DNA of 41,391 nt from Bacteroidales bacterium (lineage in GTDB: Bacteria; Bacteroidota; Bacteroidia; Bacteroidales; F082): NCBI GenBank assembly GCA_017439405.1, contig JAFSJF010000070.1:1-41391 (forward strand), written 5' to 3'. This document shows positions 3,215-24,096 of the stretch, one piece after another; within the stretch, counting starts at the first letter, position 1; the number at the start of each line of letters is the position of its first letter. The notes under the pieces were generated by a model. The model was not told where the DNA came from, searched no databases, and was given only the letters and a program-made list of their open reading frames with translations. A program made the translations under genes and the position numbers.

Positions 3215-6200
3215 ATGAACAGAAAACCGCTACTTTTTCTCATTGCCGTCGCCTTGCTGATGCCCTTCGCCGCCTTCGCGCAAAGCATCATGGTGAGCGG
3301 TAAGGTCGTCTCAAGCGACGACGGCCTCGGACTGCCAGGTGTCACCATTCAGGTGAAAGGCACTGCGACTGGCACCGTGACCGACATGGACGGCAACTAT
3401 TCCTTGAAGGCCGACAGCCAAGACGTGCTGGTTTTCAGCTATGTGGGCTACAAGACCAAGGAGGTGGCCGTCAAAGGCAAGAACAAGATCAACGTGACCC
3501 TCGAGACGGATGCGCAAATGCTCGACGACGTGGTGGTCACGGCTCTCGGCATCAAACGACAAAAACGCGAGTTGGGCTATGCCACCGAAGAAATCGGCGG
3601 CGAGATGATTGCCAAGTCTGGCTCGGGAAGCGTCATCAGCGCGTTGAGCGGACGCTCGGCGGGCGTGCAGATCATCAACCCGAATGGCGTTGACGGCGGC
3701 TCGTCGCGCATCACCATCCGTGGAAACAACAGCATCTTCGGCGACAACCAACCGCTCATCGTCGTCGATGGCGTTCCGATGACCAACGAGGGCGGCGTGA
3801 CCGACTGGAGCGGTGGTCGCGACTGGGGTACGGCCCTCAACAACATCAACCAAGAGGACATCGAGAGCCTCGACATCCTGAAAGGCCCCACGGCGGCGGC
3901 GCTTTACGGCTCGCGTGGCGGCAACGGTGTGGTGCTCATCACGACCAAGAAAGGGTCGAAACAACGGGGCTTAGGCATCAGCTATTCTGGTGGTTTCAAG
4001 ATCACTACGCCCTATTTGTACCGCTCCGTGCAGAACAAATACGGCGGTTGCGGCCCCGTCTCTTTCGACACCCCGACATTGACGCCCATCGAAGGCATGG
4101 TGGACGAGAACGGCAACCAAGTGTATGAATTCCCGTATGTTTACAACGTCGACAACGGTCCGGCGGGCGAACCCACCAACACCACCTTCGGCTACTACGG
4201 CGGCGCCCAAAGCTGGGGCCCTGCGATGAACGGCGAAAGCGTCCTTTGGTGGGACGGCAAAATCCGCTCCTATTCGCCCCAGCCCGACAATTTGAAGATG
4301 CTCTTCAAGAACGGCCTCACAATGAACCACAACGTGGCCTTCCAGAATGCCGGCGACTTCGGCAGCGTACGCGTGTCGTTCACCGACTCGCGCACCGACG
4401 CCATCATCGACAACTGCAATTTGAGGCAAACCACGGTCAACGTGGGTACCTTAATTAATGTGTCGGAGAAAATCAAGGTTGACGTGGCGTTCAACTATTT
4501 GGACTACTACCGCTTGAACTCGCCTGAAATCGGTGAGTCGAACAGCAATTTCAACAAGGGCTTGCTCTACAGCTGGCCTCGCAGCTGGCAAGGCATCGAG
4601 ACCACGACCTACGAGAACGAGGACGGCACGATGAACCAGTTTGACGGCTATCCCTATCCCTACATCTACAGCAGCACGTTCTGGACGTTCTACAACAACA
4701 ACACGACCTTAGACCGCGACAAGATGTACGGCTCGGTGAGGTTGCTCTACGACGTGACGCCTTGGCTCACCGCCACCGCCAAGGTCGCCTTGGACTGGAC
4801 TGCCGACAATTACATCACCAAGCACAAGCCCACCACCTTAGACGGCATGGCGGGAGGCTACTACTCGAAGAGCAAGTCGACCTCGCTCACCCGCGACATG
4901 GACTTCCTGCTGACCGCCTATAAGGACAAGATCTTTGGCTCGAAGTTCAACGTGCGCTTCTCGGCGGGCGGCGAGCAATACTACGGCTATCGCGACGGCA
5001 TGAACGGCACATCGGGCACTTGGGCCTACGCCAACCTATACACGATTTACAACTATTCATCGGCCACCGAGCGTGTGTTTGGCGAGTCGAAATGGGAGAA
5101 ACAGGTCAACTCGTTGTATGCCTTCTTCAACTTGAGCTACAGCGACTTCCTCTTCTTGGACGTGACGGGCCGCAACGACTGGTCGTCAACCCTGCCCATC
5201 AGCAACAACAGCTACTTCTATCCCTCAGCCACTTTGAGCTTTGTGCCTACTTCGGCTTTCAAGAACTGGAACTGGGGGCCTGTCAACTACCTGAAACTGA
5301 GAGGGTCGTGGGCACAAACCGCCAGCGATACCGATCCTTACCAGCTGACTTACACCTACAACACCGGCTCCTTCGGGCATCAGTTGTCGGCTTCCTTGCC
5401 TTCCGTGGTTCCGCCTTTGGAGCTGAAGCCCCAGCGCCAGCGCAGCTATGAACTCGGCTTCGACCTCGGCTTGGGCGCCCGATTCAACATGGACTTCACC
5501 TATTATGACATCTACAGTTGGGACCAGATTCTCTCGTCGCCCGTTTCGCCTTCGTCAGGATCCAACCATGTGACCATCAACACGGGTATCGTGACCAACA
5601 AGGGCATCGAGGCCATCATGACCTACGACATCGCCCAAGGCAAGGACTATGGCGTTCAGGTGGGTTTGAACTTGGCGCGCAACAAAAACAAGATCGTCGA
5701 TTTGGCCGGAGCCAACATGTACATGCTTTCCGAGATATGGGGATCGAACGGTCCGGCTGTGGCCGTGGAAGAAGGGGAGGAATACGGCACCATCTACGGC
5801 TGGGACTATGTCTATGAATACACCATGCCCGACGGTAGCACCGTGGGGCCTTTCTACGACGCCAACGGCAAGCCGCTGCCTTTGCTCAATGAGACGGGTA
5901 CGACCTATTTGATGACCGACAATCGTGTGCCGGTGGGCAACTGCGCTCCTTTGGTGACGGGCGGCGTCAACCTGCGAGCTTCCTACAAGAACTGGTCGCT
6001 CTATGCCTTGGTTGACGCGAAGTTGGGAGGCCAGATCTATTGCGCCTCATACGTGGTGGGCATGCAGACCGGCCAAAGCTTGGCGACCCTTTATGAACGC
6101 GACGGCAACGGCTTGCCCTACTACGATGCCGAAGGCAACTTCGTCGGCAACTACGGCATCATCCTGCCAGGCTACTGCATCAACACCGAGACGGGCGAAG

Positions 6201-6544
6201 CCCATGAGAACGAGAACGTGGTGCACTACCTTTACAAGTATCTGCCCAACTTTGGCGGCTGGGGTCCCGTCATCACCACGCCGGGCATTGTCAACAACAC
6301 ATGGGTCAAGATGCGCGAGCTTTCATTGACCTATGACTTCCCGCGCAAGTGGCTCGACAAGCAGAACCTCTTCAAGCAGGCTTCCATCTCCCTTGTGGGT
6401 CGCGACTTGTTCTATTTCTACAAGACCCTTCCCGACAACATCAACCCCGAAGGCACCCAAGGTTCGGGCAACGCCCAAGGCCTTGAATATGCCTCCTATC
6501 CCGGAACGCGGTCGTTTATGCTAACCCTAAAAGTCAGTTTATAA
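3215..6544 (+). CDS. SusC/RagA-family TonB-dependent outer-membrane transporter
   Basis: This 1109-residue protein imports ligands across the outer membrane using TonB energy, with a SusD-type lipoprotein as lid. The ATG at 3215 begins a signal peptide (MNRKPLLFLIAVALL..., AFA|QSIM); a TTG six bases earlier is less likely. A carboxypeptidase-D-regulatory-like domain follows (about residues 25-100: VSGKVVSSDDGLGLPGVT, FSYVGYKTKEV), then the SusC-type plug (LDDVVVTALGIKRQKRELGY, RITIRGNNSI, PLIVVDGVPM, LDILKGPTAAALYGSRGGNG), then a ~850-residue barrel ending in the aromatic-rich TRSFMLTLKVSL. The SusD partner follows at 6658 and a PNGase F-like enzyme at 8389, so the likely ligand is a product of glycoprotein deglycosylation; this is inference from context. 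No SusR-like, ECF sigma or anti-sigma gene is adjacent. Confidence 0.95.
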   Translation: MNRKPLLFLIAVALLMPFAAFAQSIMVSGKVVSSDDGLGLPGVTIQVKGTATGTVTDMDGNYSLKADSQDVLVFSYVGYKTKEVAVKGKNKINVTLETDAQMLDDVVVTALGIKRQKRELGYATEEIGGEMIAKSGSGSVISALSGRSAGVQIINPNGVDGGSSRITIRGNNSIFGDNQPLIVVDGVPMTNEGGVTDWSGGRDWGTALNNINQEDIESLDILKGPTAAALYGSRGGNGVVLITTKKGSKQRGLGISYSGGFKITTPYLYRSVQNKYGGCGPVSFDTPTLTPIEGMVDENGNQVYEFPYVYNVDNGPAGEPTNTTFGYYGGAQSWGPAMNGESVLWWDGKIRSYSPQPDNLKMLFKNGLTMNHNVAFQNAGDFGSVRVSFTDSRTDAIIDNCNLRQTTVNVGTLINVSEKIKVDVAFNYLDYYRLNSPEIGESNSNFNKGLLYSWPRSWQGIETTTYENEDGTMNQFDGYPYPYIYSSTFWTFYNNNTTLDRDKMYGSVRLLYDVTPWLTATAKVALDWTADNYITKHKPTTLDGMAGGYYSKSKSTSLTRDMDFLLTAYKDKIFGSKFNVRFSAGGEQYYGYRDGMNGTSGTWAYANLYTIYNYSSATERVFGESKWEKQVNSLYAFFNLSYSDFLFLDVTGRNDWSSTLPISNNSYFYPSATLSFVPTSAFKNWNWGPVNYLKLRGSWAQTASDTDPYQLTYTYNTGSFGHQLSASLPSVVPPLELKPQRQRSYELGFDLGLGARFNMDFTYYDIYSWDQILSSPVSPSSGSNHVTINTGIVTNKGIEAIMTYDIAQGKDYGVQVGLNLARNKNKIVDLAGANMYMLSEIWGSNGPAVAVEEGEEYGTIYGWDYVYEYTMPDGSTVGPFYDANGKPLPLLNETGTTYLMTDNRVPVGNCAPLVTGGVNLRASYKNWSLYALVDAKLGGQIYCASYVVGMQTGQSLATLYERDGNGLPYYDAEGNFVGNYGIILPGYCINTETGEAHENENVVHYLYKYLPNFGGWGPVITTPGIVNNTWVKMRELSLTYDFPRKWLDKQNLFKQASISLVGRDLFYFYKTLPDNINPEGTQGSGNAQGLEYASYPGTRSFMLTLKVSL

Positions 6545-6570
6545 TCATCACACAATATGGAAAACAAAAA

Positions 6571-6642
6571 GACACGAGACTTCGAGACACGAGACGCGAG
6601 ACTTTTGGATAACTCGCGTCACGCAGTCTCGCGTCACGCGTC
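6571..6642. repeat. 72-bp inverted repeat of GAGACGC units, copy 1
   Basis: The left arm (6571-6602) is built from 7-8 bp units of the type CACGAGA/CGCGAGA, and the right arm (6615-6642) from CGCGTCA-type units complementary to them, around a 12-bp centre. A second copy of identical length lies at 21030-21101: its left arm differs at 1 of 32 positions and its right arm at 3 of 28, while the centre is unrelated. This copy lies between susC and susD. Confidence 0.85.
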
Positions 6643-6657
6643 AAAAAAACGAGCTAT

Positions 6658-8349
6658 ATGAAACACAATATTTTGATCATCATCGGTGTAGCATTGGCTT
6701 TGGCCTCCTGCACCAAGAATTTCGAAGAGATGAACCAAGACCCGTTCTCGCCGACGGGAACGACCATCGAAGCCTTGTTTAACGGCGTGGTCAGTTCGTT
6801 GCAGCAGAGCATGAACGAGCAGTTCTACCTGCAAAACGAGATTTGGTATCCCGAAACGGAACTCGGCGCCTTGACCTCCGAGTCGTGGGGCAACTCCCAA
6901 ATCGGGACCTCGAATGTGTGGTCGGACTACTACCTCATGTTGGCCAACATCCGCGAGTTGGAAAAACGCTTCGATGCCTACGGCGAAGAACAGGCCGACC
7001 CGGCCGTTTGCGACAAGGTGCGCGCCCAACTCAACGTTTTGAAGGCCTACCAGACTTTCAAGGTCACGGACATCTTCGGCGACATGCCATACTCTCAGGC
7101 AGGCCGAATCTGGGAAAACGCCTCCTCGCAGGCCACCATGAAACCCGAATGGGACACCCAGGAGAGCATCTACAAGTCGCTGTTGGAAGAGTTGGTGTGG
7201 TCGCGCGACGTGCTTCACGCCGACTCCATCACCACTTCGAGCGGCAACGACTATTACAAGCTGCCCTACGACGTGCTGCTCAACAACAACTATGCACTCT
7301 GGGCCGAGTTTGCCAACTCGCTCATCCTGCGGCACGGCTTGCGCATGTACGACAAAGACCAGGAATTCGCCACACCGTTGTTGGTGGAAGCCTACAACTA
7401 TTCCTACTCGGTCATCAGTTCGACGGGCGGTATGGCCACGGGAGGAGCCGTTGCCTTGTGGCCCAGTGTGTTGGGTACGAACTGGGACACCAATTGGTCG
7501 TTCCGCGAGCACAAGCACCTCCGCATGGGCGAGACGGTTTGGAGTTGTATTTCCTCGACCGACGACTTGGACGGAAGCGGCATCTTCGACTACCGCGCCT
7601 TCCTTTTCTTCGACACGAGCCACAAGAACGACAGCTTGCCCGAAGGCGCTTGGCGGCCCTATCCGCAAATCCGCACCCTCGACACGCCCACCGAGGGCGG
7701 TTCGCCCTACGCCCAAAGCCGCGACGGAAGCTATACCTTCAAAGGCCCGTCGTGTCTCTTTGCGCCGTTCAACTACTACCTGACCCGCGATGAAAGGTAT
7801 GTGCCGCAAATCCTCGTGACCTACGCCGACGTGCTTTTCATGAAGGCCGAAATCGGGGCGCGTGGCATCGGAGGTATCACCCTATCGGGCATGGAACTCG
7901 ACCAGATGCTCTTCCAAGGCATCTACCAGTCGTGCCTCTTCTGGGCGCACCTGCCGCAAAACACCAGCCGCTGGACCTACCTCTATCCGCAATACACCAA
8001 CTTTGCCGGCAACCTCGACATCTGGGCCTTGGCCAACAACATGGCTTCCAACGTGATGAACTATGCCGTCTATATGAATCCCGACTTCGACGGCAGCAAC
8101 GAGTCCTACCTTACCCTTATCTACCAACAGCGTTGGATCAACCTGTTCCGCCAGCCTTGGGAAGCCTGGGCCTTGACGCGCCGCACCATGGCCACGCCCA
8201 CCACCACCAACCACGCCAAGCTGACCTCCTTCCGCATGGAATACCCCCAAAACGAGATAGAATACAATTACGAGAACTACACCGCACAGTTGGCAAGGAT
8301 GCCGCACGGCGACACGAGGCAGACCAAGGTTTGGTGGATGGACTTTTGA
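6658..8349 (+). CDS. SusD/RagB-family (SusD-like_2) nutrient-binding lipoprotein
   Basis: This 563-residue protein starts with a lipoprotein signal peptide (ILIIIGVALALASC, lipid-modified Cys18), followed by the TKNFEEMNQDPFSPTGTT motif typical of the SusD-like_2 branch. In this family the lipoprotein sits on the SusC barrel as a hinged lid and binds the ligand, using a TPR-rich helical core. Visible family features are the helical region with LKAYQTFKVTDIFGDMPYSQ, the YVPQILVTYADVLFMKAEIG helix, and the C-terminal QQRWINLFRQPWEAWALTRR block. It follows susC after a spacer filled almost entirely by a 72-bp inverted repeat, and precedes the PNGase F-like gene by 39 bp, so the three are likely cotranscribed. 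The repeat between susC and susD could modulate their relative expression. Confidence 0.93.
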   Translation: MKHNILIIIGVALALASCTKNFEEMNQDPFSPTGTTIEALFNGVVSSLQQSMNEQFYLQNEIWYPETELGALTSESWGNSQIGTSNVWSDYYLMLANIRELEKRFDAYGEEQADPAVCDKVRAQLNVLKAYQTFKVTDIFGDMPYSQAGRIWENASSQATMKPEWDTQESIYKSLLEELVWSRDVLHADSITTSSGNDYYKLPYDVLLNNNYALWAEFANSLILRHGLRMYDKDQEFATPLLVEAYNYSYSVISSTGGMATGGAVALWPSVLGTNWDTNWSFREHKHLRMGETVWSCISSTDDLDGSGIFDYRAFLFFDTSHKNDSLPEGAWRPYPQIRTLDTPTEGGSPYAQSRDGSYTFKGPSCLFAPFNYYLTRDERYVPQILVTYADVLFMKAEIGARGIGGITLSGMELDQMLFQGIYQSCLFWAHLPQNTSRWTYLYPQYTNFAGNLDIWALANNMASNVMNYAVYMNPDFDGSNESYLTLIYQQRWINLFRQPWEAWALTRRTMATPTTTNHAKLTSFRMEYPQNEIEYNYENYTAQLARMPHGDTRQTKVWWMDF

Positions 8350-8388
8350 TAGTAGATAGTTTTAAGTTTTAAACAAATAGTTAACATT

Positions 8389-11064
8389 ATGAAAAAGACA
8401 TTTTTATCCCTTGTGATGATGCTTTTGAGCATCGGGCTGATGGCCCAAGTCGAAAAGATCTTCGATTTCAACGATTATCAGGTTGGAAGTGGCCAACCCT
8501 ATCCTCCGCTGAACGGACAAGACGGTTGGTATGTCCGTGCACATAGTGCCGGCAACGGCGGAAGCACCATGGGCCCCATGTACACCGACTACATGGGCCA
8601 CTACTGGGGCAACACCCCCGTGACACCCACTGCCGACGAAACCTTGGGCGTGTTCTCGCACGCCTCGGGCACGGGCTTCGGCGACATCGCCACCCACGAC
8701 ATCACCCAATACGGCTTCGACTTCTCCGATGGCGGCATCATCGAGATCGAATGCGACGTGCTGCGCCAATGGTGGGGCACCCTCTTCGGCATCGGCTACG
8801 ACGGCAATGGCGACGGCTCGGTGCTTCCCCCAGTCCGCAAGGCGCCCAACCACAGCGCACTCTACGAGCCCATCTGGCCCGACGCAACCAGCACCTTGCC
8901 CGACGGAGGTATCTACATGCTGACCACCGGCAACACCGACGACACCGATTTCTTCTGTGGCGTGGTCCTGCCCGACAACACCCCTACCTGCGACATCAAC
9001 CCTGCTGTGCCCGACAACACCTGGATCCGCTGGAAGGTCTCCATCGACCTTGATGCCAACAACGGTGCAGGCGCCGTCACGCTCTACGTGAAATACGACA
9101 TCCTCCACGGCGAATGGGAAGCCGTGCCCGAATGCCAAGGCGTCAACGCGGGCCTGACTCCCGGCAGTGGCGACAAGAAAGACCCCGCCATGTGGACTTA
9201 CATCTTTATGCTCAACAGCGGCTGGTGCGGCTTCGACAACTTGACGATACGTCATACTCCTGGCGGCCTTGCTGCGCAGTTCATCGACTTTGCCGAAATC
9301 CCCGACCAGTTGGTCTACAACGGACCTATCACCCTGCAAGCCACAGCCACCTCGGGTCTGCCCGTGACCTTTGAGGTCGCCGAAGGCCCTGTCACCTTGG
9401 ACGGCAACATCCTCACCCTCACTGGCGAGGAAGGCACCGTCAGGGTTCGCGCCATCCAAGCCGGCGACGGCACGCAATGGCAACCCGCCCCTGTCGTGAC
9501 CCGTACTTTCTATGTGGTTGACCCCGAGAATTACGCTCCCGAAATCACCATCCGTCGTCCCTACGAAGGCACCAAAGTGTTCATGCCCGACTTCGAGAAC
9601 CCCGTGATGATTGTGCTGAGCGCCTACATCGACCATGCCAACGCCATCAAGTTCGAGCAAGTGAAATGCAACGTCGACGGACAGGAGCTGACCCTCAAGA
9701 CCGACTATCCCGACAACCCCGACAACGGCTATTGGTACACCACATGGACCCCTTCGGGCGAAGGCACCTACAACATGACCGTCAGCATCACCCAAACGGG
9801 CGGCAAGGTCACATCGGCGTCAAACACTTTCGAGGTGACCACCAACTATGACGACATGGTGGTTTCCGCCCTCAACGGCGAAGTGGTAGCCACCACACAG
9901 AACTTCACCGCCTACGGCGAGTTCCCCTTCCCGACCCACGTCAACGCCTTCAACGCCATCAACTTGCATTATCTCCACAACTGCGTGAACGGCGACTGCA
10001 ACACCTACGACCACATTAGCTACGTCCGCGTGAAGAACTACCGTGGCGAATGGGTGGAGCTTTGCCGCTACATCACCCCGTTTGGCGTGGAATGCAACGA
10101 CGACCTCGACGTGAGCGACTTCACCTCCGTGCTGCAAGGGCTCGTCGAATTCGAGTATTATAGCGAACAATATGCTACGGGTCAGGGCTACAACCCCACC
10201 GCCATCTTCGAATACACCAAAGGCACGCCTGAGTATCCCTACGTGGACATGCAGGAACTATGGTACGGAAACTATGCCTTCGGCGATTACGAAAACCCAT
10301 GCCCCATCCCGACCCGTGAGGTCGTTTTCGATCCCTGTGTCGAAAAGGCCAACTTGAAGATTGTCACAACAGGCCACAACTGGAGCGACGTCAGCAACGG
10401 TGCCTACAACACGGGCAATGCCGCCGAGTTCTACGAAGCCACGCACAACATCAAAATCAACGGTGGCACGACCTACACGCAGCATCTGTGGCGCAACTGC
10501 ACGCCCAACCCCGCAGGCTGCCAGCCTCAAAACGGCACATGGACCTATGCTCGCAGCGGCTGGTGCCCAGGCAGCATGGCTTTGGTGTGGGACTATAGCC
10601 TCGACGACTACCTGCCAGCAGGCAGCGCCAATCTCCTCTATGAGTTCGACCCGACCTACATCGACCAATGCCACCCCAACTACCCCGACTGCGTGAGCGG
10701 CCAGAACAGTTGCCCGGACTGCAACAATTCCAGCAACCCGATTTTGAGGGTTTCTGCCAAGTTGGTGACCTACAGCCACAACACTGACATTCTGACGGAT
10801 GTTCCTGAGCAGCCCGACGTGGACGCGGAGCCCTTCCAAGTGACCATCACCCCCAATCCCGCGAGAGGCCAAATGACCATCACCACGGACTACGAGAAGG
10901 GTGCAGCCAGCGTCGTCCTCATCAACCCGCAAGGAATCAAGGTGCGCGGCTTCAGCGTGAGAGGCTCGGCCACTGTCGATGTCAGCGACCTGCCGTCGGG
11001 CATCTACTTTGTCCATGTCATCGGAGGTAAGGTGGTGACGAGGAAAGTGGTGATTCAGAATTAA
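8389..11064 (+). CDS. PNGase F-like peptide:N-glycanase, T9SS-secreted (paralog 1)
   Basis: PNGase F cleaves the amide bond between the innermost GlcNAc of an N-glycan and Asn. This 891-residue protein has a signal peptide (GLMA|QVEK), an N-terminal beta-sandwich-like region (about 20-290: LNGQDGW, WWGTLFGIGYDGNGDG, GFDNLTIR), two Ig-like segments (about 300-485), the PNGase F N- and C-domains (about 495-790), and a T9SS type A sorting domain (about 812-891). The PNGase core is recognisable from CNTYD...VELCRYITPFGVE, KGTPEYPY, GNAAEFYEATH, NGTWTYARSGWCPG. Aligned from memory with the Elizabethkingia enzyme, catalytic D60, E118 and E206 correspond to D541, E593 and E680, all present. It follows a susCD pair. 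Activity is inferred; the long N-terminal extension is absent from the classical enzyme. The paralog is at 36008. Confidence 0.85.
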   Translation: MKKTFLSLVMMLLSIGLMAQVEKIFDFNDYQVGSGQPYPPLNGQDGWYVRAHSAGNGGSTMGPMYTDYMGHYWGNTPVTPTADETLGVFSHASGTGFGDIATHDITQYGFDFSDGGIIEIECDVLRQWWGTLFGIGYDGNGDGSVLPPVRKAPNHSALYEPIWPDATSTLPDGGIYMLTTGNTDDTDFFCGVVLPDNTPTCDINPAVPDNTWIRWKVSIDLDANNGAGAVTLYVKYDILHGEWEAVPECQGVNAGLTPGSGDKKDPAMWTYIFMLNSGWCGFDNLTIRHTPGGLAAQFIDFAEIPDQLVYNGPITLQATATSGLPVTFEVAEGPVTLDGNILTLTGEEGTVRVRAIQAGDGTQWQPAPVVTRTFYVVDPENYAPEITIRRPYEGTKVFMPDFENPVMIVLSAYIDHANAIKFEQVKCNVDGQELTLKTDYPDNPDNGYWYTTWTPSGEGTYNMTVSITQTGGKVTSASNTFEVTTNYDDMVVSALNGEVVATTQNFTAYGEFPFPTHVNAFNAINLHYLHNCVNGDCNTYDHISYVRVKNYRGEWVELCRYITPFGVECNDDLDVSDFTSVLQGLVEFEYYSEQYATGQGYNPTAIFEYTKGTPEYPYVDMQELWYGNYAFGDYENPCPIPTREVVFDPCVEKANLKIVTTGHNWSDVSNGAYNTGNAAEFYEATHNIKINGGTTYTQHLWRNCTPNPAGCQPQNGTWTYARSGWCPGSMALVWDYSLDDYLPAGSANLLYEFDPTYIDQCHPNYPDCVSGQNSCPDCNNSSNPILRVSAKLVTYSHNTDILTDVPEQPDVDAEPFQVTITPNPARGQMTITTDYEKGAASVVLINPQGIKVRGFSVRGSATVDVSDLPSGIYFVHVIGGKVVTRKVVIQN

Positions 11065-18154: not shown

Positions 18155-18236
18155 TTTTACACATTTTATGAACAAAATTTTTGGCAAATTTACACATTTT
18201 CTGGACAAAATTTTCGATAGTTTTACACATTTCATG
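18155..18236. repeat. Three tandem copies of a 33-bp AT-rich repeat
   Basis: TTTACACATTT recurs at 18156, 18189 and 18222, exactly 33 bp apart, each copy followed by a related A/T-rich stretch (ATGAACAAAATTTT, CTGGACAAAATTTT, then CATGTTTCTGAC). A closely related single copy (TTACACATTTCATG) lies at 15203-15216. Read on the minus strand the repeats give an 11-residue period (MCK...NFV), but no convincing gene contains them. Confidence 0.8.
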
Positions 18237-18350: not shown

Positions 18351-19364
18351 ATGAAACACCTATTTGCATTGATAACATTGGCCGCTGCCCTCACAATGGC
18401 CTCTTGCGGCGGCAAGCAACCCAAAGGCAACGACACCCCGTCGGAAAAGCCCAAGAAAACGGTTGACGTGCCTGACTTCAACGCCGATTCTGCCTACCGT
18501 TATGTGGCCCGGCAAACGGAGTTCGGGCCGCGTGTGCCCGAAACACAGGCTCATGCCCAATGCGCCGAATGGCTCGTCACAAAGCTGGGCGCTTGGGCCG
18601 ACACCGTCATCGTGCAGGAGTTCCGGACACGGCTCTACAACGGCAAGGGCATCGACGGGAAGAACATCGTGGCGGTGTTCAACCCCGAGGCCAAGAAGCG
18701 CGTCGTGCTGTGCGCACATTGGGACTCGCGCCCCTTTGCCGACCACGACCCCGACAAGGCCAACACGCACAAACCCATCGACGGCGCCAACGACGGCGCC
18801 AGTGGCGTGGGCGTGCTGATGGAATGCGCCCGACAGTTCGGCGTGCAGCCATTGCCGGAAAAACTCGGCATCGACATCGTATTGTTCGACCTCGAGGACT
18901 ACGGCCCGCACCAAGACCAAGCAGAGGCGTACTACGAAAACAACGAAAACTATTGGGCCTTGGGTTCGCAGTATTGGTCGAAACAGCCGCATGTGTATGG
19001 CTACAAGGCCTACTACGGCATCCTCTTGGACATGGTGGGCGGCCCTAACCCTAATTTCCAGAAGGAATACTTCTCTCAGGGCTATGCCGCTTGGGTGGTC
19101 AACAAGGTGTGGCGCAAAGCCGCCGACTTGGGCTACCGCCAGCAGTTCAGCAACGAACAAGGCACCGTCATCAGCGACGACCATGTGCCGATGAACCAAA
19201 TCGCGGACATCCCTACCATCGACATCATCGACCTGCACCCCGAAAGCAGCAACGGCTGTTTCCCCGAAACATGGCATACCGTGAACGACAACCTTGAACA
19301 CATTGACAAAGAGACACTTGGAATAGTTGGGCAGGTGCTGCTCCATGTGATTTATGAAGAATAA
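18351..19364 (+). CDS. Glutaminyl-peptide cyclotransferase (M28 family) lipoprotein
   Basis: Glutaminyl cyclase converts N-terminal Gln of exported proteins to pyroglutamate, protecting them from aminopeptidases. The 337-residue protein starts with a lipoprotein signal (LAAALTMASC, Cys19) and has the M28 fold signatures of the Porphyromonas/human type II QC: CAHWDSRPFADHD (H123), PIDGANDGASG (D148), DLEDYG (E182, D183), LLDMVGG (D227) and PETWHTVNDN (H309). By comparison with the family, D148, D183 and H309 are the likely metal ligands and E182 the general base. Relevance in the window: all eight non-lipoprotein secreted proteins here have Gln at the predicted +1 position. In oral Bacteroidota this enzyme is reported to be important for viability. 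It has its own promoter; the next gene belongs to a separate unit. Confidence 0.9.
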   Translation: MKHLFALITLAAALTMASCGGKQPKGNDTPSEKPKKTVDVPDFNADSAYRYVARQTEFGPRVPETQAHAQCAEWLVTKLGAWADTVIVQEFRTRLYNGKGIDGKNIVAVFNPEAKKRVVLCAHWDSRPFADHDPDKANTHKPIDGANDGASGVGVLMECARQFGVQPLPEKLGIDIVLFDLEDYGPHQDQAEAYYENNENYWALGSQYWSKQPHVYGYKAYYGILLDMVGGPNPNFQKEYFSQGYAAWVVNKVWRKAADLGYRQQFSNEQGTVISDDHVPMNQIADIPTIDIIDLHPESSNGCFPETWHTVNDNLEHIDKETLGIVGQVLLHVIYEE

Positions 19365-19948: not shown

Positions 19949-19973
19949 AAACCGCACTCGTTGCGGTTTTTTT
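19949..19973 (+). terminator. Intrinsic terminator
   Basis: AAACCGCA (19949-19956) pairs with TGCGGTTT (19962-19969) over a 5-nt loop, and the T run extends to 19973. It lies about 30 bp after the barrel gene. Confidence 0.85.
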
Positions 19974-20075: not shown

Positions 20076-20261
20076 ATGCAATTACTTTTTCTTTCGACGA
20101 CAGAAATCATCATCATCGTTGCCGTTGTCTTGCTGCTTTTCGGCGGCAAGAAGATCCCCGAGCTGATGAAGGGCTTGGGCAAGGGCGTGAAAAGCTTCAA
20201 GGACGGCGTGAACGGCGTGGAGGAGCCTGAAATCAAGGCGGACAAGGAAACCAAGGAATGA
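20076..20261 (+). CDS. tatA: Sec-independent translocase subunit TatA
   Basis: TatA oligomers form the membrane pore or weakened patch through which folded twin-arginine proteins leave the cytoplasm. The 61-residue protein has the usual layout: one N-terminal membrane helix ([16 protein letters not shown]), the [21 protein letters not shown] amphipathic helix and a charged tail. Its stop overlaps the tatC start by four bases (ATGA, 20258-20261), which points to translational coupling. No separate tatB is present; in minimal TatAC systems TatA serves both roles. Confidence 0.95.
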
Positions 20262-21067
20262 GCGCGACGGAGGCGAGGTCGTTTTGGGATCACCTTGAGG
20301 AATTCCGGAAAGTGCTGTTCCGTTGCCTCATAGCTTGGTTTGTTGGCGCGGTGTTGGCTTTTTGTTTCAAGAGCCATCTGTTTCGGGTACTTTTCGCACC
20401 CTCAACGGCAGATTTCGTTTCCTACCGTGGCTTGTGCCGTTTGGCGCAGGCGACGGGATGGACTTCGCTTTGTCCAGGCTCGTTTGAGGCACGGTTCATC
20501 AACACGGAATTGGCGGCGCAGTTCATGACGCACATCAAGGTCTCGCTTTGGACCGGGCTGGTGCTTGCCTTCCCGTTTCTGCTTGCGCAACTCTACGGCT
20601 TCGTGGCACCTGCCTTGTACGAAAAAGAGAAACGCTACACCGTGCCGCTGCTCTTGGCTGGGGCGCTGCTGTTCCTCGCGGGCGTGCTGCTCAACTATTT
20701 CGTCATCTTCCCGTTCTCGTTCCGCTTCTTGGCCAACTACCAAGTCTATGGCGCGGTGGTGAACCAAATCTCGCTCTCGTCCTACATCTCGGCTTTCGTC
20801 ATGCTGAGCCTCCTGATGGGCCTGATGTTCGAGATTCCCATCGTCAACTATTTCTTGGCGAAGATGGGCCTCTTGACCGCCGAGACCTTGAAGAAATACC
20901 GCCGCCACGCCATCGTGGGCATCGCGATTGTGGCGGCTGTCATCACTCCGACGGGCGACGCGGTGACGCTGATGCTCGTTACTTTGCCGATTTATTTACT
21001 TTATGAAGCCAGCATACTCATTGTCAAAAGACACGAGACTTCGAGACGCGAGACGCGAGACGGGTGA
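20258..21067 (+). CDS. tatC: Sec-independent translocase subunit TatC
   Basis: TatC is the receptor for the twin-arginine signal. This 269-residue protein has the conserved N-terminal [13 protein letters not shown] motif, six predicted membrane helices, and family blocks [21 protein letters not shown] and [21 protein letters not shown]. The first periplasmic loop is longer than usual ([20 protein letters not shown]...). The last 13 residues ([13 protein letters not shown]) and the stop codon are encoded by copy 2 of the 72-bp repeat also found at 6571, so the native C-terminus has been replaced or extended by a repeat. TatC C-termini are cytoplasmic and variable, so function is probably kept. 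Two genes with twin-arginine motifs follow. Confidence 0.95.
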
Positions 21068-21101
21068 TAGTCCCGCGTCCCGCAGTCCCGCGTCCCGCGT
21101 C
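21030..21101. repeat. 72-bp inverted repeat of GAGACGC units, copy 2, invading tatC
   Basis: The left arm (21030-21061) differs from copy 1 at 6571 at one of 32 positions, and the right arm (21074-21101) at three of 28. The first part is translated as the end of TatC and the tatC stop codon (21065-21067) lies in the repeat centre. Both copies are in the same orientation. Confidence 0.88.
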
Positions 21102-21146
21102 AAAAAAAAGAAAACTAACTCAAATATTAACTAACTCAAAAACATT

Positions 21147-22613
21147 ATGTTACGTAAAATCAGAATTTGCCTTCAGGTGGTCATGATGGCCTTGATCACC
21201 TTGCTGTTGCTCAACATCGGGTTCGAGGTCCACAACTGGGCGGGCTGGGTGGCCAAAATCCAGTTCCTGCCCGCGCTCATGGCCTTGAACTTCGGCGTGT
21301 TGGCAGTGCTCATCGTGTGTGCGCTGCTCTTTGGCCGACTCTATTGCAGCGTGGTTTGCCCCTTGGGCATCATGCAAGACTTCTTCTCGTGGCTCGGCGG
21401 CAAAGCCAAGAAGAACCGCTTCAGCTACGCCAAGGAAAACAAGGTGCTGCGCTACGGCTTTTTGGCCGTTTTCGTCATCTTGACAATCATCGGCTTTGCC
21501 CCAGTGACGACTTTATTTGCTCCGTATAGTGCCTACGGTCGTATCGTGAACAGCCTGTTCAAGCCGCTGTATGACATGCTCAACAACTGGCTCGCGGGCA
21601 TGGATGCCGCTAACGAGCGCTACAACTTCACCGAGGTGCAAGTGTGGATGCGCAGCGTGACGACTTTCGTCGTGGGTCTGCTCACCTTATTAATATTAGG
21701 CTTCCTCGCTTGGCGCAAAGGCCGCGTCTATTGCAACTCGATTTGTCCTGTGGGCACCGTGCTGAGTTTCTTCTCGCGCTTCTCGCTGTTCCGCGTGCGT
21801 TTCGACGAGAGCAAGTGCAAGAAATGCAGCCTTTGCGAAAAGAACTGCAAGGCGCAAGCCATTGATTTCAAGGCGGGTACAGTGGACTATTCGCGCTGCG
21901 TGGTGTGCGGCGACTGCCTCGAAAAATGCAAGTTTGACGCTTTGCATTACACCGCAAAGAAACCCGTTGCAGAGCCTAAACCCGTTGACGACGGTCGGCG
22001 CTCGTTCTTGGTTGGCGCGGCTATTGCTGGCACAACCGCTGCCATGGCGCAAACCCAAATGAAAGTCGATGGCGGCTTGGCGGTCATCGAGGACAAGAAA
22101 GCCCCGAAGCGCGACACGAAAATCACGCCTCCGGGTTCGGTTTCGGCCAAGCATCTGCAACGCCACTGCACGGCCTGCCAGCTTTGTGTTTCGCAATGTC
22201 CGAACAACGTGCTTCGTCCCTCCACCGACTTGCAGAACTTCATGCAGCCCACCATGTCGTTCGAGCGCGGCTACTGCCGCCCCGAATGCGTGAAGTGCAG
22301 CCACGTTTGCCCCGCCGGAGCCATCAAGCACCTCTCCCGCGAGGAAAAGACCACCATCCATGTCGGCCATGCCGTGTGGATCAAGGAAAACTGCGTTGTC
22401 TTGACCGACGGCGTTTCGTGCGGCAACTGCGCCCGCCATTGCCCGACAGGAGCCATACAAATGATTGACTATGAAGGACCTAACGGAACGGTGCAAGTAC
22501 CCGCCGTCGACGAGAACAAATGCATCGGCTGCGGTGCCTGCGAGCATCTCTGCCCCGCCCGCCCGTTCAGCGCGATTTACGTTGAGGGGAATGAAATGCA
22601 CCATATTGGGTAA
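21147..22613 (+). CDS. NapH-NapG-like fused membrane polyferredoxin with internal Tat signal
   Basis: The N-terminal ~270 residues match NapH-type quinol-oxidising membrane ferredoxins: four membrane helices, two C-x3-CP motifs (C67/C71 and C196/C200), and two 4Fe-4S motifs (C224-C234, C251-C261). Next comes GRRSFLVGAAIAGTTAAMAQ (residues 283-302), a complete twin-arginine signal with its hydrophobic segment, as at the start of NapG/MauM proteins. The C-terminal part carries four more 4Fe-4S motifs (around C341-C351, C377-C388, C416-C432, C459-C469), as NapG does. The likely topology is a cytoplasmic middle with a periplasmic C-terminal ferredoxin, passing electrons from menaquinol to a periplasmic acceptor. 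The gene lies 79 bp after tatC and is followed by a Tat-type reductase, a possible electron partner. No nitrate reductase genes are nearby. Confidence 0.85.
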   Translation: MLRKIRICLQVVMMALITLLLLNIGFEVHNWAGWVAKIQFLPALMALNFGVLAVLIVCALLFGRLYCSVVCPLGIMQDFFSWLGGKAKKNRFSYAKENKVLRYGFLAVFVILTIIGFAPVTTLFAPYSAYGRIVNSLFKPLYDMLNNWLAGMDAANERYNFTEVQVWMRSVTTFVVGLLTLLILGFLAWRKGRVYCNSICPVGTVLSFFSRFSLFRVRFDESKCKKCSLCEKNCKAQAIDFKAGTVDYSRCVVCGDCLEKCKFDALHYTAKKPVAEPKPVDDGRRSFLVGAAIAGTTAAMAQTQMKVDGGLAVIEDKKAPKRDTKITPPGSVSAKHLQRHCTACQLCVSQCPNNVLRPSTDLQNFMQPTMSFERGYCRPECVKCSHVCPAGAIKHLSREEKTTIHVGHAVWIKENCVVLTDGVSCGNCARHCPTGAIQMIDYEGPNGTVQVPAVDENKCIGCGACEHLCPARPFSAIYVEGNEMHHIG

Positions 22614-22695
22614 TGCGGAATGCGGAATGCGGAATGCGGAATGCAGAATGCGGAATGATGAATTTTGAATCTTAAATCTTAAATCACAAATCATG
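22612..22695 (+). repeat. Twelve consecutive 7-bp units (AATNNNN) between stop and start codons
   Basis: From 22612 the sequence reads in perfect register as heptads: AATGCGG four times, AATGCAG, AATGCGG, AATGATG, AATTTTG, AATCTTA twice, AATCACA, AATCATG. The upstream stop codon TAA (22611-22613) overlaps the first unit, and the last unit contains the ATG of the aldo/keto reductase gene. The whole 79-bp spacer is therefore repeat. Related heptads occur at 31780. Confidence 0.9.
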
Positions 22696-24096
22696 GACAG
22701 AAGAGATTTCCTAAAACATATCGGCGGCGCGGCGGTGGCCACTTCGGTGGTGCTTTCCGCCTGCAAGAACAGCGGCGACGAATCGCCAATTATCGTCAAA
22801 AACGTCATCGATGGCCAGGGCGAGATGACCTACCGAACCAACCCCAACACGGGCGACAAAGTCTCGATTTTAGGCTACGGCATGATGCGCCTGCCCGTTG
22901 AGGGCGGCGGATCGGCACGCGAAAACCCCAACGCCGACATCGACCAAGAGATGGTCAACGAGCAAGTGGACTATGCCCTCGCGCACGGCATCAACTACTT
23001 CGACACCTCGCCGGCCTATTGCAAAGGGCTGTCGGAACGTGCCACGGGCATCGCCCTTTCGAGGCACCCGCGCAACTCTTATTACATCGCCACGAAACTG
23101 TCGAACTTCAGCCCTTCCACATGGAGCCGCGAAGCCTCGCAAGCCATGTTCGAGAACTCGCTTAAGGAATTGCAGACCGACTACATCGACTACCTGCTGC
23201 TCCACAGCATCGGCGGCGAGACGCAGGAACTGGACAGCGAGCATCTTTTCAACACGCGCTTCATGGACAACGGCATCTTGGACTGGCTTGTCGAGCAAAA
23301 GGAGAAAGGCCGTATCCGCAACCTCGGCTTCTCGTACCACGGCGACGTGAAGATCTTCGACATGCTGCTGCGATGGATGGACGAGGGCAAATATCATTGG
23401 GATTTCGTCCAAATACAGATGAACTATGTGGACTGGCACTACGCCAAGCGCATCAACACGCGCAACACCGACGCCGAGTATCTCTACAACGAGTTGCACC
23501 GTCGCGGCATCCCCAGTGTCATCATGGAGCCGCTGTTGGGCGGACGCTTGGCCTCGTTGCCCGACTACATCGTCAGGCAAATGCAGGAACGCGAGCCCGA
23601 AAGCCCCGTGGCACGCTGGGCTTTCCGCTATGCCGGCACGCCCGAAGGCATCCTCACCGTATTGAGCGGCATGACCTACATGGAACACCTGAAGCAGAAC
23701 GTGGAGACCTACTCGCCCTTGCGCCCCATCACGGCGGAGGAAGACGCTTTCCTGATGAAAGTGGCCGAGCAATACGTGGACCTGAAAACAGTGCCCTGCA
23801 CGGCGTGCAACTATTGTATGCCATGCCCCTACGGACTGAACATCCCTGCCATATTCGGCTACTACAACAAGAGCATCACCGAAGGCAACATGCCGACGGG
23901 CAGCCGCGAGGCACAAGAATATTGGCAAGCCCGCAAGCGTTTCCTCGTCGGCTACGACCGCAACATTCCCGTTTTGCGGCAAGCCAGCCACTGCATCGGG
24001 TGCAACCAATGCGCACCACACTGTCCGCAGAACATTGAGATTCCGAAGCAACTGCACAGGATTGACGATTATGTGGAGCAGTTGAAGCAGGTGTAA
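22693..24096 (+). CDS. Tat-exported aldo/keto reductase with C-terminal ferredoxin domain
   Basis: The 467-residue protein opens with a twin-arginine signal that also has a lipobox-like end (DRRDFLKHIGGAAVATSVVL, SAC24), so it should be exported folded and perhaps lipid-anchored. The aldo/keto reductase barrel follows, with the catalytic tetrad D104, Y109, K135 and H171 (NYFDTSPAY, ATKL, LLLHSI). The C-terminal ~100 residues hold two Cys clusters (CTACNYCMPCPYGLNIP and CIGCNQCAPHCPQNIEIP) typical of 4Fe-4S aldo/keto reductases of anaerobes. Substrate is unknown. Because an NADPH-type barrel is unusual outside the cytoplasm, electrons may instead come through the iron-sulfur clusters, plausibly from the polyferredoxin encoded just upstream; this is inference. 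The spacer before it is a heptad repeat array. Confidence 0.88.
   Translation: MDRRDFLKHIGGAAVATSVVLSACKNSGDESPIIVKNVIDGQGEMTYRTNPNTGDKVSILGYGMMRLPVEGGGSARENPNADIDQEMVNEQVDYALAHGINYFDTSPAYCKGLSERATGIALSRHPRNSYYIATKLSNFSPSTWSREASQAMFENSLKELQTDYIDYLLLHSIGGETQELDSEHLFNTRFMDNGILDWLVEQKEKGRIRNLGFSYHGDVKIFDMLLRWMDEGKYHWDFVQIQMNYVDWHYAKRINTRNTDAEYLYNELHRRGIPSVIMEPLLGGRLASLPDYIVRQMQEREPESPVARWAFRYAGTPEGILTVLSGMTYMEHLKQNVETYSPLRPITAEEDAFLMKVAEQYVDLKTVPCTACNYCMPCPYGLNIPAIFGYYNKSITEGNMPTGSREAQEYWQARKRFLVGYDRNIPVLRQASHCIGCNQCAPHCPQNIEIPKQLHRIDDYVEQLKQV

Follow-up and report, generated by a model that had tools for sequence, protein, structure and literature searches.

Polyferredoxins are described in text passages of Tooke et al. 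2017 (PMC5449189) as fusions of NapH and NapG in which a twin arginine is conserved ahead of helix 5. Reporters placed behind the five predicted helices of the MLMS-1 polyferredoxin required the twin-arginine translocation (Tat) system and the arginine pair for export, and the low hydrophobicity of the fifth segment, together with the positive charges that follow it, was argued to free this segment from Sec (PMC5449189). A fusion of this kind, encoded between a tatA-tatC gene pair and the gene of an aldo/keto reductase (AKR), is analysed here in a stretch of 41,391 nucleotides from a Bacteroidales bacterium of lineage F082 (assembly GCA_017439405.1, contig JAFSJF010000070.1, positions 1 to 41,391). 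This stretch is referred to as the window and corresponds to contig C52 of a genome of 3.53 Mb that is 98% complete and 5.21% contaminated. The internal Tat signal of the window fusion is probably cut by signal peptidase I, which would leave separate NapH and NapG subunits and not a protein anchored by a fifth helix.

Glutamine is the residue exposed in most substrates of signal peptidase I in Bacteroidetes (the Q-rule, PMC5837995), with a share of about 71% over the phylum (Szczesniak 2023, PMC10653852). In the parts of these two sources used here, the rule is described for N-terminal Sec signals, unlike the internal Tat signal of the fusion; 'Tat' and 'twin' have 0 occurrences in the main texts, and inner-membrane proteins are named as still to be tested (Bochtler 2018, PMC5837995). 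The text passages of Tooke et al. 2017 contain no Bacteroidales polyferredoxin and no AKR partner, and their sole 'Bacteroid' mention is YkuE (PMC5449189).

With the MLMS-1 polyferredoxin (Q1NSB0), as far as the same passages describe it, the window protein shares the fused NapH and NapG parts, four Sec helices, a twin arginine before a weakly hydrophobic fifth segment, positive charges after that segment and four 4Fe-4S clusters, whose export is predicted for the window protein. The MLMS-1 protein was counted with three cytoplasmic clusters, while the window protein has two motifs and four C-x3-CP cysteines that could make up the third, and it differs in its short signal ending in a conserved Ala-Gln. 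Domain content, motifs and the (here predicted) Tat export of the NapG part are shared with the NapG and NapH quinol dehydrogenase subunits; the window protein differs in being fused, and both halves score below the NCBIfam equivalog cut-offs (NapH model PRK09477, 85.9 bits vs 234; NapG model PRK09476, 69.9 bits vs 269). The AKR shares its domain, catalytic tetrad and two 4Fe-4S motifs with AKRs that have C-terminal ferredoxin motifs, taken here to be COG1453, and differs from them in a Tat lipoprotein signal and predicted export. A minimal TatAC linked to its substrate, as in the window, occurs in Bacillus subtilis, where PhoD is encoded with TatAdCd; the substrates differ. Bradyrhizobium FbcH, a cytochrome b/c1 precursor exported via Sec, is cut at an internal signal into two respiratory subunits.

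The NapH-NapG fusion and its internal signal

Related loci were collected by a contig scan (43 loci, titled uncultured Bacteroidales or Bacteroidia with one Prevotella, many of them from ruminant samples) and from an order-wide sample of 198 genomes, in which fusion and AKR matches were counted at E 1e-40 or better and fusions were found in 84 genomes, TatC in 164 and AKRs in 37. AKR-linked fusions were designated group I and those beside a DUF362-type gene cluster group II. Fusion rows shorter than 455 amino acids were removed before representatives were chosen, and the alignment of 92 sequences was reduced to 56 at less than 80% identity (36 group I and 20 group II). Among the contig-scan relatives, tatC lies upstream of the fusion in 34/43, at a spacing of -11 to 152 bp (of the remaining nine loci, L043 starts inside the fusion), and an AKR lies 4-509 bp downstream in 40/43; at the three loci without it (L017, L023, L054) the contig stops in the fusion itself or no more than 140 bp from it. 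Because the order and spacing of tatC, fusion and AKR recur across the 43 relatives, the gene arrangement is not due to chance. The 4-bp overlap of tatA and tatC reported in the first-pass annotation is real, and is common to 35/35 loci measured, the window included.

All of the fusion motifs listed in that annotation were located. The NapH part carries C67-x3-C71P and C196-x3-C200P and the cytoplasmic clusters C224-C234 and C251-C261, and the NapG part carries 4Fe-4S motifs at C341-C351, C377-C388, C416-C432 and C459-C469. The internal twin-arginine stretch lies exactly at residues 283-302, GRRSFLVGAAIAGTTAAMAQ, with the pair at 284-285, and the linker before the pair ranges by eye from about 22 to more than 50 residues among the relatives. 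Predicted insertion energies of helices 1-4 are -1.9 to -3.4 kcal/mol (helix 1, -1.87), on a scale whose only check was a value of 0.01, obtained for a 19-residue Ala segment containing three Leu. By this scale, helices 1-4 are strongly inserting by group median in both groups, while the signal segment is non-inserting (positive energy) in 36/36 group I and 20/20 group II representatives. Loop charges of the window fusion favour an N-terminus on the inside. The basic pair before the segment was read in the 36 group I representatives as 31 RR and 5 RK by script, and as 33 RR and 3 R-K by eye, two of the five RK readings being RRK. By homology to the MLMS-1 protein, for which export was demonstrated with reporters and whose features it shares, the window fusion very probably uses dual Sec/Tat insertion, as the first-pass annotation had proposed. 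Dual insertion of NapH-NapG fusions is already published biology and is not new, because Tooke et al. 2017 tested it with reporters.

That annotation overlooked the ending of the internal signal, AMA/Q, with the predicted cut between Ala and Gln. An Ala or Ser followed by Gln stands 16-18 residues after the basic pair picked by script in 33/36 group I representatives, with Ala in 32 of them and Ser in one, and charged residues follow soon after this stretch in 33/36; the exceptions to the Gln spacing are L053 (ATA/Q at 26), L112 and L114. When the sequences are aligned on the Ala-Gln site, the hydrophobic columns and most signal columns vary; the invariance of Gln there follows from the way the alignment was made, and common ancestry makes the count larger as well. 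The -3 residues of the fusions are L, V, A, I and one M, most of which are covered by the commonest -3 residues (V, A, L, T, S, I) of crude signal-peptide candidates encoded near loci L086-L140, where a site of the Ala-Gln type was found in 50/93. Since Ala or Ser before Gln is the combined signature of signal peptidase I and the Q-rule of Bacteroidetes, a cut into separate NapH and NapG proteins is favoured over a fifth-helix anchor, and the predicted cut looks new for this kind of protein. Gln was also considered as a strictly class-Bacteroidia feature, which was not upheld, as Ala-Gln is also frequent in fusions from other classes of the same phylum, there mostly after K-R (by eye, with no junction picked up in several). 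Among plasmid sequences, 3 records had matches extending over 80% of the query, and each of them is from Bacteroidales.

One natural split of the fusion was seen. In genome G096 the NapH-like and NapG-like parts are encoded by separate genes with a 4-bp overlap, the NapG-like gene having its own N-terminal RR signal; as in group II, a DUF362-like gene lies next to them. Because both parts are encoded as separate overlapping genes in this genome, the covalent link is, judged from the gene structure, dispensable in at least one lineage, which is not of the AKR type. No further convincing split was seen, and no systematic search for splits was made. A split gene in G001 was rejected as an assembly break, each half lying at a contig end, and the fusion match of G047 has an in-frame stop.

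The published alternative, in which the Tat segment stays in the membrane uncut as helix 5, is unlikely here by comparison with cleavage, and several observations speak for it and against the cut. The homologues of Tooke et al. 2017 have the conserved twin arginine before a fifth helix and were described, in the passages available, as five-helix proteins to which an artificial signal peptidase site was added for release of the reporter (PMC5449189). Positive charges follow the segment as they do in the published homologue; L, I or V frequently occupies position -3, which is poorer than ideal for signal peptidase I; and Gln is absent from the group I fusions L112, L114 and L197, the last a later addition with ASA/K at the cut position. 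In group II a clear Ala-Gln is mostly absent (the signature was found by script in 9/20, with one site, L130, doubtful and discounted because its S-Q lies well past the hydrophobic stretch, and the script found no motif in 5/20 in which the basic pair is visible by eye), and the separate NapG signal of G096 lacks it as well. Set against an anchor are the length of only 16-18 residues between the pair and the Ala-Gln in 33/36 with charges soon after, the prediction of a non-inserting segment in 36/36, the existence of the G096 split, and the conserved Gln after Ala, which a helix anchor leaves unexplained. The first-pass analogy with proteins whose last helix is inserted by Tat thus keeps its Tat route and loses its last helix, the segment being probably a cleaved signal peptide. 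A signal ignored by Tat, with both ferredoxin parts left in the cytoplasm, is very improbable. It would fit the R-K in place of R-R in 3/36 group I fusions (L086, L048, L106), which also counts against Tat export as preferred here, and the missing TatC match in 4/84 fusion genomes (G052, G098, G154, G157), whose completeness of 78-93% could account for it. TatC was found in 80/84 fusion genomes vs 84/114 others (Fisher 4e-5, relatedness ignored), the partner AKR and DUF362 proteins bear Tat-type signals, and the published homologue, from the same partial source, was exported by Tat (PMC5449189).

The aldo/keto reductase as a probable partner, and the linked TatAC

The first-pass annotation had placed an AKR with the N-terminus RRDFLK after the fusion, and this reading is borne out by a PF00248 match of 114 bits (cut-off 24), which is accompanied by two C-terminal 4Fe-4S motifs. 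It had missed the lipobox: the signal MDRRDFLK...LSAC has a twin arginine, a hydrophobic stretch and a lipobox cysteine, and the AKR is on this basis a predicted Tat-exported lipoprotein. A Tat pair with a lipobox-like Cys occurs in 77/82 AKRs by a loose pattern, and the basic pair is RR in 78 of the 82 and R-K in two (L106, L116), with no signal found in two. D104, Y109, K135 and H171, taken here to be the catalytic tetrad D-Y-K-H, are invariant in 82/82, as are the first four cluster cysteines; the second set is invariant in 81/82 (one row gapped). By profile, L-galactose dehydrogenases come out as the best solved relatives, at a remote 64 bits and E 1e-16, and no PDB match covers the cluster domain in its best stretch. 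S214-Y/F215 and M278-E279 are present in 82/82, at positions where NADP-dependent AKRs presumably have S-N and Y-S; the aligned L-galactose dehydrogenase 8scc departs there too. A tightly bound NAD(H), or no such cofactor, is possible from these residues, and the AKR could equally be a dehydrogenase.

A limit of 600 bits, set after seeing the scores, defined group I fusions and strong AKR matches in the order sample, and the two sets are identical, in 31/198 genomes (30 and G001, in which the gene is broken over two contigs); six further genomes have weak AKR matches only. The AKR is the direct neighbour in 28/30 fetched group I loci (upstream once, L105); L091 has it at a distance of 2.7 kb, and in L102 it is on a separate contig. 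A search of the genus, with 24 genomes including that of the window, found fusion and strong AKR together in 19 and neither in 5, one of which (G602) has a weak AKR match. At 19/20 fetched group II loci a gene of one cluster, of which the one representative scanned is DUF362, lies directly upstream, and all 19 products start with RR by eye; at the remaining locus (L122) an AKR without a recognisable signal was found. The fusion-AKR gene pair is also annotated in records of Bacteroides finegoldii and Parabacteroides distasonis. In the P. distasonis record NZ_OY725762.1 (L179, 10001-15998) two pairs are adjacent, arranged fusion-AKR-AKR-fusion; the plasmid label of this record looks doubtful, since it carries genes such as mdh and ftsK. 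An earlier description of the pair was not found among open-licence papers, and AKR terms gave 0 occurrences in the papers checked for them, a weak absence as 'aldo/keto' is unsearchable. The conserved AKR partner looks new, and from its distribution and signal the AKR is likely to be the redox partner of the fusion.

Conservation of the neighbourhood, raised as a check in the first-pass annotation, holds for the fusion-AKR pairing and is partial for tatAC. Among the order-sample group I loci, the window included, tatA-tatC lies within about 6 kb in only 8/31, upstream in the window and L087 and downstream in L096, L099, L100, L104, L111 and L092, the last taken as the continuation of L091 because the AKR gene spans both contig ends; tatA occurs without tatC in L093 and L112. 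Further linkage, in other samples or groups, was found at L151 (upstream), L197 (downstream) and L123, and in 20 further regions together with L137 and L147-L149 the TatC of pair-bearing genomes lies elsewhere, except in the linked L197 and L200. At L123 (G108, 5202-8810) a DUF362-type gene, a group II fusion, tatA and tatC are consecutive. A midpoint-rooted TatC tree was made from 35 representatives (85% cut, from 67), the unlinked rows all coming from genomes with the fusion-AKR pair and thus not being a random sample. A branch with 100/98 support divides 21 rows, which include all 15 linked representatives, from 14 rows that are all unlinked (Fisher 2e-5, relatedness ignored).

The window genome has a second, unlinked tatAC (L137), which is also among the 21 rows. 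Contamination, despite the 5.21% flag, is not the simplest reading of this second tatC, because three genomes of the same genus (G591, G604, G611) carry one TatC of the window type (69-74% identity) and one at 47-48% each, and because the tetranucleotide use of contig C155 is similar to that of the window. In G101 (L106) both fusion and AKR have R-K, and in G020 (L116) the AKR has R-K. The TatC of these two genomes (L149, on a very long branch, and L192) forms a three-row group (100/99) with L190 (G178), and TatC and the R-K motif appear to have changed together in G101 and G020; fusion and AKR of G178 keep R-R.

The link of the AKR to the fusion stood up, by conserved neighbourhood and the same Tat route, and the flow of menaquinol electrons to the exported AKR, as first proposed, is one possible direction, as electrons could also run the other way. 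In a reversed relay, which is compatible with the cut, the AKR would oxidise a periplasmic sugar or alcohol and electrons would pass via NapG and NapH to menaquinone. L-galactose dehydrogenases oxidise their substrate, and of the 11 distinct PDB sequences that matched at E 1e-10 or better they account for 5, the top three among them, which points this way; the matches are remote and do not fix the direction. NapGH proper is a quinol dehydrogenase, according to the partial text used here (PMC5449189), which points the other way, and outward flow is considered the likelier direction, with reversal an unlikely one. As to tatAC, an accident of local synteny is rather improbable. No tatAC was seen beside 23/31 group I loci, some of them cut by contig ends, which weighs against a dedicated exporter, and the upstream linkage of the window clade mostly goes back to a single inherited event. 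An accident is countered by the occurrence of upstream linkage at two distinct places in the TatC tree (the window clade with L087, and L151), by downstream linkage in 6 order-sample loci and L197, by the linkage beside a group II fusion, and by the confinement of 15/15 linked TatC to one side of the branch, with 0 among the other 14. A dedicated role for the linked TatAC is nevertheless put forward only tentatively, as somewhat doubtful.

Feature coordinates and neighbouring genes

The features of the locus are listed in Table 1. A terminator-like hairpin at 19949-19969, between the cyclase gene and tatA, suggests that tatA starts a new transcription unit; such hairpin sites are barely above chance (13 found vs 10.2 expected, sd 2.9).

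Table 1 Features of the locus, with positions in the window and supporting scores
Feature	Position	Strand	Support
Glutaminyl cyclase homologue of Peptidase_M28 fold, lipoprotein predicted by eye	18351..19364	+	PF04389 121 bits
tatA, 61 aa	20076..20261	+	PF02416 55.6 bits; TIGR01411 64.6 bits (cut-off 53.9)
tatC, 269 aa	20258..21067	+	PF00902 228 bits; TIGR00945 187 bits (cut-off 132.7)
NapH-NapG fusion (polyferredoxin), 488 aa	21147..22613	+	
NapH-like part (residues 1-282) with four helices, two C-x3-CP motifs and two cytoplasmic 4Fe-4S motifs	21147..21992	+	
Internal Tat signal, residues 283-301, GRRSFLVGAAIAGTTAAMA	21993..22049	+	+1.9 kcal/mol (predicted insertion energy)
Predicted signal peptidase I site, Ala301/Gln302	22047..22052	+	Derived from the Q-rule papers
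NapG-like part (residues 302-488) with four 4Fe-4S motifs, 187 aa if cut as predicted	22050..22610	+	
AKR, 467 aa, Tat lipoprotein signal (RRDFLK...LSAC), two C-terminal 4Fe-4S motifs	22693..24096	+	

The cyclase homologue matches PDB 6qro, 'Glutamine cyclotransferase', at E 1e-94. Its motifs are DGANDGASG, FDLEDYG and LLDMVGG, and by eye against the part of PMC5837995 available, D159, E201 and D248 are conserved, with D for E202. The Pfam Peptidase_M28 gene thus belongs to the class of enzymes whose targets are Q-rule N-termini. The cyclase was not accepted as a constant part of the module: in a survey of loci from L013 up it lies beside only L022, L025, L027 and L030 besides the window, all of the window's own sub-clade, and in the window the hairpin separates it from tatA. 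A 33-bp tandem repeat, TTTACACATTTTATGAACAAAATTTTCGACAAA, with 2.5 copies at 18156-18236, precedes the cyclase gene. Tandem repeats with 7-bp units (AGACGCG, GTCCCGC and AATGCGG) occur at 21029-21101, 22612-22663 and 6570-6643, namely at the end of and after tatC, after the fusion, and elsewhere in the window, where there are similar ones.

In the 55 regions L086-L140, covering both groups, recurrent neighbours were a flavodoxin cluster (7), DUF1893 (7), a TonB receptor cluster (9) and a membrane-like protein of about 170 amino acids without a Pfam match (10/55); family names came from one or two representatives each, and some TonB receptor genes were joined to DUF1893 by simple gene calling. 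Genes of the flavodoxin cluster with signal-like N-termini, apparently exported, lie directly before the pair in L093, L095, L104, L105 and L107, and just after it in L088. None of the recurrent neighbours (exported flavodoxin, DUF1893, DUF362, TonB receptor, membrane protein of about 170 amino acids) gave a substrate for the AKR, and there was no nitrate reductase among the annotated neighbours.

Proposed relay and its meaning

The four genes may encode an outward-facing electron relay together with the exporter that it needs. Sec would insert the four NapH helices with the N-terminus inside, and the weakly hydrophobic fifth segment would be released into the cytoplasm, where the clusters would assemble. 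TatAC would then export the folded NapG part through the internal twin-arginine signal, as homology to the published polyferredoxins indicates, and signal peptidase I would cut at Ala301/Gln302, giving a NapH membrane subunit and a NapG subunit of 187 residues, whose N-terminal Gln may be cyclised. NapG would dock on NapH and exchange electrons with the AKR lipoprotein and its two own clusters, and the relay could join the quinone pool, or cytoplasmic ferredoxin, to a periplasmic carbonyl or alcohol substrate. The linked tatAC would represent a TatC lineage repeatedly found beside these substrates.

We infer cleavage, electron direction and substrate from sequence. The combined statement, with Tat export, the cut and the AKR partner as its core, is slightly favoured, because this core is independent of the direction of electron flow and of a dedicated role for TatAC. 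Chances are even for the fuller description, in which the fusion would be a respiratory polyprotein, handled by two exporters and a cut to give two subunits at 1:1 with a Q-rule NapG, and the conserved periplasmic redox module with the iron-sulfur AKR lipoprotein would be new and partly served by a TatAC inherited along with it.

If the proposal is true, polyferredoxins, at least in Bacteroidota, would change from anchored five-helix proteins to precursors cut in two, and the Q-rule would extend to Tat substrates and also to inner-membrane substrates, which Bochtler et al., in the part of their text used here, list as still to be tested (PMC5837995). The exported iron-sulfur AKR of human gut species such as Bacteroides finegoldii and Parabacteroides distasonis would gain a likely membrane partner, and the Tat system of these bacteria would have a concrete redox module and one identifiable job.

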